From the NCBI GenBank assembly GCA_947305705.1, contig CAMZEB010000002.1, forward strand, positions 1 to 64,000: a stretch of DNA of 64,000 nucleotides, written 5' to 3'. The position numbers and the translations under genes were made by a program. Of this stretch, positions 14,480-57,292 are shown in pieces (position 1 is the first letter of the stretch; each line of letters opens with the position of its first letter). The DNA is from an uncultured Candidatus Saccharibacteria bacterium. Lineage in GTDB: Bacteria > Patescibacteriota > Saccharimonadia > Saccharimonadales > Saccharimonadaceae. The notes under the pieces were generated by a model that was given only the letters and a program-made list of their open reading frames with translations, searched no databases and was not told the origin of the DNA.

Positions 14480-14704
14480 ATGGGTGAACCAATCGATATG
14501 ATATGCCCAAATTGTTTCAGACGAAGGATTTGCAGAGATGGCCTTTGTGATGATTGCAGGAATCATCTGCGAATAACGACAGGCTATACTGGCCCTAGCA
14601 GCTCTCAATCCAAGTGTTACACTTGTGGCGGATCTGGCAAAATTGTCCATATGTTCGGCCCAGACACCCCGTGTCCGAGCTGCGGCGGAACTGGCTGCCA
14701 GTGA
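14480..14704 (+). CDS. small Cys-rich zinc-ribbon protein
   Basis: A 74-aa protein with eight or more Cys. An N-terminal CPNC...C..GLCDDC ribbon is followed by two DnaJ-type CxxCxGxG-like units (CYTCGGSG and CPSCGGTGC). It probably binds two zinc ions. There is no J domain, so it is not DnaJ; it could be a small regulatory or RNA-binding zinc protein. AAGGAGGT sits 9 nt before the ATG. It has its own promoter and terminator. Confidence 0.75.
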   Translation: MGEPIDMICPNCFRRRICRDGLCDDCRNHLRITTGYTGPSSSQSKCYTCGGSGKIVHMFGPDTPCPSCGGTGCQ

Positions 14705-53624: not shown

Positions 53625-54146
53625 ATGAGATTAATTATTGGTTTCGGGAATCCAGGCAATCAATACAACTTCACGCGCCATAATTTCGGCTTTCTAGCCC
53701 TCGATTTTTATGCGAAGCTAAATAACCTAACTTGGGCCGAAAAACCGCGCTGGCGCGCTCTCGTGGCCGAAAACAAGGCAAATGACGCGCTACTCATCAA
53801 GCCACAGACTTTCTACAACGATCAAGGTAGCTGCATCCGCACAATTAGCGACTTCTATAAGGTTAAGCCTAAGGATATTTTGATCATTTGCGACGATTTC
53901 AATCTGACGTTCGGCCAAATCCGTTTTCGCGAACGGGGCAGCGCTGGCGGCAATAACGGGTTAAAATCCACCATCCAGCATCTCGGCACTGATGATTTTC
54001 CACGCCTCCGCCTTGGCACCGGCAACGACGAACTTCGTAACCGCATCGGCGATGTCGATTTCGTTCTCAGCAAGTTTACCGAGGAAGAGCACGCCAATTT
54101 GCCTGAAACTCTTCGCAAAATTGCCGATTTTGTGTCAAAATACTAA
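53625..54146 (+). CDS. pth: peptidyl-tRNA hydrolase
   Basis: A 173-aa enzyme that releases tRNA from peptidyl-tRNA. Motifs: GFGNPGNQYNFTRHNFGF (residues 5-22, with the catalytic His), DDFNLTFGQIR and RGSAGGNNGLKS. TATAAT (53613-53618) ends 6 nt before the ATG. No terminator follows it directly. Confidence 0.94.
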   Translation: MRLIIGFGNPGNQYNFTRHNFGFLALDFYAKLNNLTWAEKPRWRALVAENKANDALLIKPQTFYNDQGSCIRTISDFYKVKPKDILIICDDFNLTFGQIRFRERGSAGGNNGLKSTIQHLGTDDFPRLRLGTGNDELRNRIGDVDFVLSKFTEEEHANLPETLRKIADFVSKY

Positions 54147-54276
54147 AAAATTGCCTATTTTATAACACTTTTTTGCAAAATAACAATAAGCGGAATCACC
54201 TCTTAAAAATAAACATAACCAGAGGTAGAAAACAGCCGAAATTCTATTGATTTTACAAAAAAGTGTGCAAAAACTA
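54147..54276. other. gap after pth holding a large inverted repeat
   Basis: 54165-54181 is complementary to 54250-54266 (16 of 17). Nested inside are AATA/TATT (54185, 54245), GAAT/ATTC (54193, 54241) and ACCTCT/AGAGGT (54198, 54221), so the whole forms one long imperfect hairpin. No ORF with a start signal was seen, and no DnaA-box cluster. It may be the 3' UTR of pth, a separate RNA or a DNA site. Confidence 0.45.
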
Positions 54277-54305
54277 TTGACTATTCTGCAAATAAGTGCT
54301 AAAAT
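54277..54305 (+). promoter_or_regulatory. promoter of the candidate ncRNA
   Basis: TTGACT (54277-54282), 17 bp, extended -10 TGC-TAAAAT (54300-54305). No coding start lies within the next 300 nt that has an SD. Confidence 0.82.
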
Positions 54306-54311
54306 GATTAC

Positions 54312-54609
54312 AGTTTTAGCCGAAAGGCTAAGTACTGCACCTAAATAATCTATAACTTTGTTAAAACTTAGTTTTAACAATTGTTGCGTGCTATAGAAAC
54401 CCATTCGGCCTTCAAATTTCTCCTATATAGTTTGAAGTGAAAAGTATTACCTCCACTTAGAATGCAAGTTTCTATGGCTAGCAACCCCTTTAAACCGGCG
54501 GACCCCATTTGTGTGAGGTGGGTCGCGCTTCCGTCTTCCGGTACCATAAGAGGTGTGTTTAAAGGGTTAAATAGCCGCAGGTGATGCCCACCCTTACCTG
54601 CGGCTTTTT
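54312..54609 (+). ncRNA. candidate structured RNA of about 298 nt
   Basis: It runs from the predicted start after the promoter to a strong terminator. Helices seen by eye: TTAGCC-GAAA-GGCTAA (54316-54331), an 8-bp stem (54360-54378), 54389-54400 with 54468-54483 (about 12 bp with a 4-nt bulge), CTTCAAA/TTTGAAG (54410, 54431), 54483-54495 with 54557-54568 (12 bp, one bulge) and the terminator stem. RNase P RNA, tmRNA and 6S core motifs were not found. It may be a novel RNA or an unrecognised leader of topA. Exact ends and folding are not proven. Confidence 0.68.
54573..54609 (+). terminator. terminator of the candidate ncRNA
   Basis: A 10-bp stem (54573-54582 with 54596-54605) with a T5 run, ending 32 nt before the topA ATG. 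Confidence 0.9.
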
Positions 54610-54640: not shown

Positions 54641-56905
54641 ATGGGCAAGAATTTAGTAATAGTAGAGTCTCCAGCCAAAGCGCACACTATCGAGAAATAC
54701 CTCGGCAGTGATTTTACCGTGCTCGCATCGGTTGGGCATATTCGCAAAGATACGAAAGTCGACAAGAATACTTTTGATGTCACTTATGAGGTTGACCCAG
54801 GCCACAAGAGTATTATTGCCGATTTAAAGAAAGCCGCCAAAGAAGCCGATAAAATCTGGCTCGCAACGGATGAGGACCGCGAGGGAGAAGCTATTTCTTG
54901 GCACCTTTGCGAAGTTCTTGGTCTTCCAAAAGACACCGCTCGTATCACTTTTCACGAGATTACAAAACCTGCTCTCGACGCCGCAATCAAAGCGCCACGC
55001 ACCGTCGATATGGATATGGTTGCCAGCCAGCAGGCCCGCCAAACTCTTGATATGCTCGTCGGTTTTGATCTTTCTGGCATCGTTCGCAAAAAAGTCCCAG
55101 GCGCCGTTTCTGCTGGCCGCGTCCAGAGCCCAGCCCTCCGCCTCATCGTCGAGCGCGAACAGGCTATTGAGAAGTTTGCTAGCAAATATACCTACAAAGT
55201 CTCTGGCGATTTCGGCTTCCCAGCAACCCTCGACCACGATTTCGACAACGAAGACGAGGCAAAAGCCTTCCTCGAAAAGCTAATCGGTGCCGAATATACC
55301 GCCTCCGCCGTAGAGACCGCCCCTGGCGAACGCAAACCGCAGCCTCCTTTTACTACTGCATCTATGCAGATTGAAGCCAACTCCAAACTCGGCTTTAGTG
55401 CAAAGACCACAATGCAAGCCGCCCAAGCACTCTACCAAGCCGGTCATATTACTTACCATCGTACCGACAGCCTAAACCTCAGCAAGCAGGCCATCGCCAG
55501 CATTTCCGGCTACGTCGAGCAAAACTTCGGCAAAAACTACGTCAAAGTCCGCAATTTCAAAACCAAGGATGCTAGCGCCCAAGAGGCCCACGAGGCAATT
55601 CGCCCAACTCATATCGAGGTCGAAACCGCTGGCAAAAACGACTACGAAAAACGTCTCTACGCATTAATTCGCACCCGCGCCCTCGCCACCCAAATGGCAG
55701 ACGCCAAGCTCGAAAAGACCACCATTACAATCTCCACTCCAACCGAGTATTCATTCGAAGGAAAGGGTGAGGTTATCATTTTCGATGGCTTCCTCAAGGT
55801 TTACGGCCGCTTCAAAGAGAGCGAACTGCCAAAAGTATCCGTCGGTGACAAATTAACCGCCGCAAGCATCATTGCGAAACAAAATTATGCCAAACCACCT
55901 GCCCGTTACACCGAGGGTTCGCTTGTTAAAAAACTTGAAGAACTCGGCATCGGCCGCCCATCAACCTACGCGACTATTATGACCGCCATCCAGGCCCGCG
56001 GCTACGTCGAAAAAGGCGAAAGCGAAGGCGAAGAGCGCCAAATCACCCAGTTCAAACTCGAAAACGGCCAAATTTCAGAAGAAAAAGTCACTGAAAAATA
56101 CGGCGCCAACAAAGGCAAACTTCTACCGACTCCAATCGGTGAGCTAATCGCCGGCTTCCTTGTTGACCATTTCCAAAACATCGTAGATTACAAATTTACC
56201 GCAAATATCGAAAAAGATCTCGACCTTGTCGCCGAAGCGAAACTCGACCGCGTCAAAATGCTCCGCGATTTCTACGGCCCATTCAACGACGAAGTACTCG
56301 CAAGCGAAGGCATCGAACGCTACAATAACGCCCGCCTTCTCGGTCACGACCCTGAAACTGGCAAAGCAATCTATGCCAAGGTTGGCAAAAACGGCGGCTT
56401 CATCCAGCTAGGCGAGAACGAAAAAGAAACCGGCGAGAAGCCACGCTTCGCACCACTGCCGAAGCGCAAATCCGTCAAAACCGTCACTCTAGAGCAAGCT
56501 CTGAAACAGCTCGCCCTTCCTCAGCTCCCACGCACCCTCGGCAAAGCCGCCGATGGTGCCGAGATTATTGCCGCCTCTGGTCCATTTGGCCCATATCTCA
56601 AAGCCGGCAAGTACAATATCCCACTCAAAGATTTCGATCCATACACTATTACGCTCGAAGATGCCGAGCCACTATATGAGGCAAAACGCGATTCATATAT
56701 CGCCGACTGGGGTGAAATTCAGATTATTAATGGCGCCTACGGTCCGTACGTAAAGGGGCCTGGCCGCCGCAACTTCGTCCGTATTCCGAAAGACGTCGAT
56801 CCAAAAACCATCACAAAAGAGCAGGCCGAAGAATATCTCGCCAACAAGCCAAAGAAAACCACCCGTCGCCCAGCGAAGCGCACCCGCAAAACAGCGAAAA
56901 AATAG
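54641..56905 (+). CDS. topA: DNA topoisomerase I
   Basis: A 754-aa type IA topoisomerase: TOPRIM with VESPAKAHTIEKYL and DEDREGEAI, catalytic Tyr in ITYHRTDS (about residue 272), and C-terminal repeats GPFGPYLKAG and GAYGPYVKGPG that replace the usual zinc fingers, then a Lys/Arg tail. ATG 54641 is chosen from the family start MGKNLVIVESPAK; a frame to 54581 crosses the terminator. -10-like GATAAT is at 54625-54630. Confidence 0.96.
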   Translation: MGKNLVIVESPAKAHTIEKYLGSDFTVLASVGHIRKDTKVDKNTFDVTYEVDPGHKSIIADLKKAAKEADKIWLATDEDREGEAISWHLCEVLGLPKDTARITFHEITKPALDAAIKAPRTVDMDMVASQQARQTLDMLVGFDLSGIVRKKVPGAVSAGRVQSPALRLIVEREQAIEKFASKYTYKVSGDFGFPATLDHDFDNEDEAKAFLEKLIGAEYTASAVETAPGERKPQPPFTTASMQIEANSKLGFSAKTTMQAAQALYQAGHITYHRTDSLNLSKQAIASISGYVEQNFGKNYVKVRNFKTKDASAQEAHEAIRPTHIEVETAGKNDYEKRLYALIRTRALATQMADAKLEKTTITISTPTEYSFEGKGEVIIFDGFLKVYGRFKESELPKVSVGDKLTAASIIAKQNYAKPPARYTEGSLVKKLEELGIGRPSTYATIMTAIQARGYVEKGESEGEERQITQFKLENGQISEEKVTEKYGANKGKLLPTPIGELIAGFLVDHFQNIVDYKFTANIEKDLDLVAEAKLDRVKMLRDFYGPFNDEVLASEGIERYNNARLLGHDPETGKAIYAKVGKNGGFIQLGENEKETGEKPRFAPLPKRKSVKTVTLEQALKQLALPQLPRTLGKAADGAEIIAASGPFGPYLKAGKYNIPLKDFDPYTITLEDAEPLYEAKRDSYIADWGEIQIINGAYGPYVKGPGRRNFVRIPKDVDPKTITKEQAEEYLANKPKKTTRRPAKRTRKTAKK

Positions 56906-57010: not shown

Positions 57011-57292
57011 ATGAACGCCAATATTATCAACGGTCCTAGCAAATTGGACCTGATTGCAAGCTTGCTTTTCTGCTGCAATCTTAAGTCCCAAAGACACCCG
57101 GTTACCTTCACTGTCAAGCAGGGCGATGCCGAGCCTATCAGAAAGTTTGACGTGGTGGTCAATATAACCTCTATGCAAATAGAGGACGGGTCCGGCGAAA
57201 GCTGGAATCTCGAGGGTCTGCTAAATAATGGCGAACGAATTAGTTTCTACTATCGCACAGACTCCCGAAAGGGTCACATCGATAAGATGTGA
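57011..57292 (+). CDS. small orphan protein
   Basis: A 93-aa protein of alpha/beta character without signal or TM. No family recognised. The leader has CTACTT/AAGTAG and a hairpin CTCTTTT-CC-AAAAGGAG that covers the SD; ATG follows 7 nt after AAGGAGG. It has its own promoter and terminator. Confidence 0.68.
   Translation: MNANIINGPSKLDLIASLLFCCNLKSQRHPVTFTVKQGDAEPIRKFDVVVNITSMQIEDGSGESWNLEGLLNNGERISFYYRTDSRKGHIDKM

Follow-up and report, generated by a model that had tools for sequence, protein, structure and literature searches.

We identified a structured RNA gene, predicted to be non-coding, that lies between pth and topA in the genome of an uncultured Saccharibacterium, and covariance-model searches have shown this candidate RNA to be near-universal in the source genome's order and, within the genomes searched, restricted to it. 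The gene occupies positions 54277 to 54609 on the forward strand of the window, by which we mean the whole 64,000-nt stretch of DNA that was analyzed. It is preceded by pth (peptidyl-tRNA hydrolase; 53625 to 54146, forward strand, with the stop at 54146), a conserved neighbor that lies outside the RNA, and it is followed by topA (DNA topoisomerase I; 54641 to 56905, forward strand, with the ATG at 54641). An earlier reading of the sequence alone had suggested an undescribed RNA of Saccharibacteria at this place, and the suggestion is supported by the lack of a match in Rfam, the order-wide occurrence in single copy, the covariation of the helices, and the presence of its own promoter and terminator. 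Overall, we consider it probable that the locus encodes a stand-alone, trans-acting, structured RNA, present in single copy and representing a new family near-universal in its order; a proposed link to translation is the weakest part of this interpretation.

Locus, promoter and coding potential

A predicted extended sigma-70 promoter is located at 54277 to 54305 on the forward strand, with TTGACT at 54277 to 54282, a 17-nt spacer, and TGC followed by TAAAAT at 54300 to 54305. The consensus promoter noted in the sequence-only reading is thus present with an extended TGn -10 element, and it was found upstream of all 157 homologs with readable upstream sequence; the spacing was 17 nt in 155 of these, TGn was kept in 154, and the consensus was perfect in 65. 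The predicted transcript (54310 to 54609, forward strand), whose homologs were found throughout the order by covariance model, would start at approximately 54310 to 54312 and end at the U-run of a terminator. The occurrence of a strong promoter and a terminator of its own throughout the homologs showed, as judged by sequence, that the RNA is independently transcribed. From the quality of the promoter alone, we infer that the RNA would be abundant.

The predicted folding energy of the sense strand was -107.4 kcal/mol and that of its dinucleotide shuffles -76.3 +/- 5.0 kcal/mol (z = -6.2), with not one of 100 shuffles reaching the stability of the native sequence. The reverse strand gave z = -5.2, which is to be expected of helical DNA. 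The approximately 298 nt that had been described as lacking a credible open reading frame were examined for coding potential. Since the longest sense-strand ORF within the transcript has 40 codons and the indels among homologs have lengths that are not multiples of three, no credible ORF is predicted, confirming the assignment of the locus as a non-coding RNA gene on sequence grounds. A strong terminator just before topA had also been noted, at a distance of 32 nt; the terminator is there, and the separation between its end (54609) and the start of topA (54641) measures 31 nt. The claim that this is the largest gene-free gap of the window held in part. It is fair in that the other candidate long gaps contain gpsA, a tRNA or small ORFs, but a mechanical count of ORFs yields longer gaps than the 494 nt between pth and topA, and the claim is not strictly shown.

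Folded structure, covariation and the terminator loop

From the 5' end, the predicted domains are P1, box A, P2, P3 (which encloses P4 and P5), P6 (which encloses P7 and the variable P8 and P9), and the P10 terminator; all coordinates given here are on the forward strand. The P1 hairpin (54311 to 54337) is supported by both the predicted fold and covariation and carries a GAAA loop of the GNRA type at 54322 to 54325; in an alignment of 126 sequences, its pairs 25-43, 26-42, 27-41 and 30-38 rank 4, 47, 40 and 39 of 53,628 column pairs, respectively. It is followed by box A (54337 to 54348), a conserved and largely unpaired stretch that reads GCACCUAAAUAA in the window and GCACCUUAUACCCCC in most other genera, and by the P2 hairpin (54358 to 54380), which is predicted by the fold and in which pair 74-89 covaries (CG/UA/UG). 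The central domain is closed by the long helix P3 (54383 to 54485; GUUGC...GCAAC), for which the evidence is covariation: replacements of GC by AU and of CG by GC are seen at pairs 98-193 and 99-192, and pair 107-184 ranks 3 of 53,628. Within P3 lie the P4 arm (54410 to 54437), which is missing in distant genera, and the P5 hairpin (54442 to 54458), whose loop displays box B at 54446 to 54454 (AUUACCUCC; UACCCUCC in distant genera). In P5, ACCUCC of box B was invariant in all 21 own-genus sequences and ACC(C)UCC was found in 20 of 20 distant loci, and the stem occurs in variants such as AAGU/ACUU and AUAGU/ACUAU.

The 3' domain is closed by P6 (54486 to 54566), in which CCCUUUAAA (54486 to 54494) pairs with UUUAAAGGG (54558 to 54566). 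All nine of its pairs were kept in 43 diverse sequences (100% of cells paired), seven of the nine showed compensatory change, and the top-ranked covarying pair of the RNA belongs to this helix. The P7 hairpin (54497 to 54529; GGCGGACCC with GGGUCGCGCU) had 98.2% of cells paired, and it is swapped as a unit in the two loci L253 and L254 (AACG/CGUU and AGU/ACU). Therefore, the GNRA-capped and long-range helices that had been proposed from the sequence are borne out, with GAAA capping P1 and with P3 and P6 covarying.

Sequences of the same genus (21 in the alignment) have a mean identity of 80% per column with long invariant stretches, and their consensus fold has 67 pairs, 22 of them with compensatory change. 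Among the top 50 covarying column pairs of the 126-sequence alignment (of 53,628), 13 were structural, where 0.07 would be expected. The top two, in P6 and in the terminator stem, lay above a phylogeny-based null; as this null is heavy-tailed and only two pairs reached E = 0, rank statistics and counts of compensatory cells were used alongside it. In the 43-sequence alignment, 97.7% of cells were paired and 140 compensatory cells were counted, compared to 33.7 in shuffles (none of 500 was as high) and to 12 to 19 when the partners were slid by one to three columns. These computational results showed that the predicted helices covary and are kept across genera, as is required of a new RNA family; the earlier reading had named the absence of conserved pairing, together with the absence of a transcript, as a finding that would speak against it, and conserved pairing is what was obtained.

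The P10 terminator hairpin (54573 to 54609) consists of a 12-bp stem (54573 to 54584 with 54594 to 54605), the loop UGCCCACCC (54585 to 54593) and the U-run. It closes all 38 homologs that were inspected, and in all 38 the loop core GCCCACCC is unchanged while the stem changes freely, pair 288-318 occurring as GC, CG and AU. Thus, the hairpin was shown computationally to be a conserved 3' domain, and its loop would belong to the RNA. The complement of the loop, GGUGGGY, is present upstream in 165 of 167 homologs, where approximately 5 would be expected from dinucleotide shuffles. In the window it forms part of the element GAGGUGGGU (54515 to 54523), of which GGUGGGU (54517 to 54523) is complementary to GCCCACC of the terminator loop, and the two are proposed to pair as pseudoknot PK1. 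In the window's genus and its relatives the complement lies in P7, approximately 60 nt upstream of the terminator; in most distant families it lies beside P6, approximately 25 nt upstream, and sometimes both places are occupied. The two exceptions have shorter or shifted complements (GGGUGG in L239 and GGGUGGGA in L249), and L238 has a local GGGUGG, its sole GGUGGGY lying at a distance of 458 nt. Because the complement relocates while the loop stays unchanged, which is good though indirect evidence, formation of a pseudoknot between GCCCACC and GGUGGG is supported, short of being shown, by conserved complementarity and relocation rather than by compensatory change, both sides being almost invariant. 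In the window's genus, PK1 would share nucleotides with the 3' strand of P7, so that the two may form in alternation.

Distribution and size of the RNA

A blastn search found the element in 22 of 24 genomes of the same genus. A covariance model across related genomes, which the sequence-only reading had named as a check, was built in two forms. Model R1, covering the central 182 positions, matched 46 of the 247 order genomes searched, representing 13 genera. Model R2, which comprises P6, P7 and the terminator and was built on 43 diverse sequences, detected the RNA in 131 of 156 genera of the order (339 of 393 genomes), nearly always as one copy. A phylum-wide draw of 380 genomes yielded matches in 32 genomes, every one of them inside the order, and no match in the genomes outside it. 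Because all 32 fell inside the order, the empirical false-positive rate at that threshold is near zero, which supports the weaker hits as a group; weak hits (E 0.001 to 0.01) in some families are individually uncertain. Approximately 14% of the genomes of the order had no match, for which stringent filtering and the incompleteness of assemblies are partly responsible.

When 84,980 species genomes were scanned with a motif, at least 118 loci were obtained, including those of the oral taxa HOT-350 and HOT-351 and of Nanosyncoccus alces. Among the 80 loci listed, all were Saccharibacteria by title except for a few entitled 'bacterium' and one Nomurabacteria. In the latter, on the contig JAIRRY010000010.1 labeled Candidatus Nomurabacteria, the RNA (1691 to 1781) lies in the typical pth/topA setting, and the contig is probably from a misbinned or misnamed Saccharibacterium.

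The predicted RNA is approximately 300 nt here and longer in some other families, and its size varies outside the core because some genera carry a large insertion in the P7 region. Such an insertion was seen in loci L235 to L239, L243 and L244, in which the R2 match spans approximately 180 to 220 nt compared to a model length of 139. Families f31 and f16 (L250, L251 and L252) have an additional hairpin between P6 and the terminator, and the terminator loop of these three loci is richer in C (GGUGCCCACCCCC).

Gene neighborhood, known RNA families and possible functions

Across approximately 150 distinct loci, the RNA was placed between pth and topA in every case in which both genes could be reached. 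In this set, topA was downstream on the same strand in 78 loci and on the other strand in 21; for pth, the counts were 76 (same strand, upstream) and 23 (opposite strand). In addition, the RNA was opposite topA in 20 of 20 loci from distant families and genera, and opposite pth wherever pth was in reach. The standing of the predicted RNA at its locus, INDEPENDENCE from neighbors, was shown computationally by this flipping of its strand relative to pth and topA between lineages, which supports a trans-acting RNA. In each of the 95 loci with a dprA hit, this gene lies immediately upstream of the RNA and is transcribed away from it. In the window's genus dprA is gone from the RNA locus, and a remnant of its start is recognized at 54240 to 54262 on the reverse strand (CKINRIS, compared to MKIN-IS in relatives), so this genus seems to have lost dprA here. 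The simplest reading of these arrangements is an ancestral order topA-dprA-RNA-pth with the RNA and dprA divergent, followed by an inversion and, in this genus, by loss of dprA with retention of the RNA. A conserved upstream sequence, TTGATTTTCAT, was rejected as a promoter element, as it corresponds to the start of dprA read on the reverse strand.

These arrangements bear on two explanations that tie the RNA to its neighbors. The sequence-only reading had offered, as its alternative, a 5' leader that controls topA by attenuation; the terminator does end shortly before the topA start in the window and most loci have topA close to the RNA, but same-strand topA is often 400 to 4000 nt away, and opposite-strand topA, in the 21 scanned loci as in the distant ones, lies behind the promoter of the RNA. 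Because the strand flips and topA is often distant, a leader is excluded as the general role, topA is as a rule not regulated in cis by the RNA, and we assign this explanation almost no probability. It is very unlikely, too, that the RNA is a regulator of adjacent genes, for example a divergent RNA controlling dprA (DNA uptake) or pth. The position of dprA and the preservation of the pth-dprA-topA neighborhood across the order would fit such a role, but in the window's genus, without dprA at the locus, the RNA is as conserved as elsewhere, its orientation relative to pth and topA flips, and its conserved loops have no special link to dprA, pth or topA.

Other explanations assign the RNA to a known family or activity. 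A search of the window with Rfam 15 (4227 models, gathering score) returned only two tRNAs, both elsewhere; the locus gave nothing credible at a permissive threshold (E up to 10), the 20 distant loci gave no match at the gathering score, and near and distant homologs gave nothing credible at permissive thresholds. Thus, the Rfam check proposed with the sequence-only reading yielded no family at the locus or in its homologs. That reading had also noted that known core sequences of RNase P RNA and tmRNA are absent, in agreement with the presence of RNase P RNA (RF00010) on contig 17 (156 bits) and of tmRNA (RF00023) on contig 14 (79 bits) of the same genome and with the lack of RF00010 and RF00023 matches at the locus. 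A strongly diverged housekeeping RNA (RNase P RNA, tmRNA or SRP RNA) would be nearly universal and single-copy, as this RNA is, and SRP RNA is otherwise undetected in the order: models RF00169 and RF01854 found no match at the locus, in the homologs or in the genome, and RF00169 was not above its cut-off in 247 genomes of the order. Nevertheless, such an origin is extremely unlikely, given that two of the three RNAs are encoded elsewhere, that no homolog, however distant, has an Rfam hit, and that an SRP RNA would lack its partner, as the Ffh RNA-binding domain PF02978 was detected in all 14 controls but in none of 100 genomes from the order and none of 192 from the phylum. Since Ffh is undetected phylum-wide and the RNA is confined to the order, the absence of SRP does not track the RNA, and the RNA was rejected as a replacement for SRP RNA. 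As an observation apart, with PF02978 and RF00169 undetected in the genome copies searched, from which stretches may be missing, these ultrasmall bacteria may be without a signal recognition particle.

A functional counterpart of 6S RNA, which would bind RNA polymerase and tune transcription, appears unlikely. In its favor are the predicted strong expression, the near-universal single copy, and the existence of lineage-specific polymerase-binding RNAs of similar size, such as Ms1 of mycobacteria; the 6S model RF00013 found no match at the locus, in the homologs or in the genome, but this is weak evidence as the model detected 6S RNA in only 8 of 14 control genomes. 6S RNA is a single long hairpin with a central bubble that mimics an open promoter, whereas the fold predicted here is multi-domain. 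It is also rather doubtful that the RNA is catalytic or a scaffold with a role outside translation and transcription, in the manner of other large bacterial RNAs of unassigned function. The invariant unpaired boxes (A, B and the terminator loop) and the likely pseudoknot suggest a compact tertiary fold; against this, positive evidence for catalysis is lacking and the catalytic families in Rfam show no similarity to the RNA.

For the stand-alone, trans-acting RNA that we favor, we infer from the invariant unpaired boxes that it would work as a ribonucleoprotein. Under this proposal, the strong promoter would give rise to a discrete RNA of approximately 300 nt that folds into P1 to P7 and P10, the terminator loop GCCCACC would pair with the GGUGGG element to form the pseudoknot, and hairpin P5 would display UACC(C)UCC, whose CCUCC core could pair with the ribosome-binding sites of mRNAs. 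Because the P5 loop UACC(C)UCC is present throughout the order and carries this anti-Shine-Dalgarno core, our tentative best guess, held with low confidence, is a translation-linked ribonucleoprotein or riboregulator. Shine-Dalgarno-like sequences precede 16 of 44 gene starts of the window, compared to 5.7% at random positions. The anti-Shine-Dalgarno role is a reading of a motif, and a C-rich loop could also bind a protein or a different segment of the RNA. A farther-reaching version, in which the RNA would be an order-defining housekeeping ribonucleoprotein RNA with a standing like that of 6S RNA or tmRNA, with the terminator-loop pseudoknot and with the anti-Shine-Dalgarno loop acting globally on translation, seems on the unlikely side.

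Several other pairings were considered. In the window's genus, ACCUC of box B can form 5 bp with GAGGU of P7, but this pairing is weaker elsewhere, and it was set aside as a general element and kept as a caveat. Box A (GCACCU) matches AGGUGYG near P9 as a pairing partner in the window's genus, but the pairing fails in the next genus. A three-strand switch at the base of P3 (CUAAC/GUUAG/CUAAC) is possible in distant genera and weak in the window's genus.

A literature search of open-licence papers found no description of the RNA and, as far as searched, the class is new, although large bacterial RNAs without an assigned function are already known as a kind. Like 6S RNA, it has a predicted strong promoter and is probably a housekeeping RNA that stands alone, is abundant and occurs in single copy, but it differs in having no match to Rfam and, besides its several domains, a proposed pseudoknot and a terminator domain. 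It resembles SRP RNA in being near-universal in its lineage and single-copy, and RNase P RNA and tmRNA in size and elaborate fold, but differs from them in the points given above. OLE, GOLLD, ROOL and Ms1 are lineage-specific, elaborate, abundant or presumed abundant, and often unclear in mechanism; this RNA is likewise lineage-specific, elaborate and presumed abundant, but its distribution follows a whole order and it has a fixed chromosomal place. Staphylococcal RsaE and the actinobacterial 6C RNA expose a loop rich in C that can pair with G-rich ribosome-binding sites, as this RNA appears to do; in contrast to them, it is approximately 300 nt in length and far more structured and conserved.

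It is rare to find a housekeeping RNA that is retained throughout a bacterial order, and this one, unlisted in Rfam and tied to a fixed chromosomal place, is kept in single copy in genomes of approximately 0.6 to 1.3 Mb that shed most dispensable functions. Saccharibacteria live as host-dependent epibionts and are common in sludge, in animal guts and in the human mouth; the regulation of their gene expression is poorly understood. The covariance model and the motif allow existing Saccharibacteria RNA-seq data to be checked directly, and oral strains that can be cultivated offer a way to target the gene.

Elsewhere in the window, a 74-codon ORF (14480 to 14704) with several CxxC motifs (zinc-ribbon-like) stands alone in a 648-nt gap, and a 93-codon ORF (57011 to 57292) stands alone in a 677-nt gap downstream of topA.
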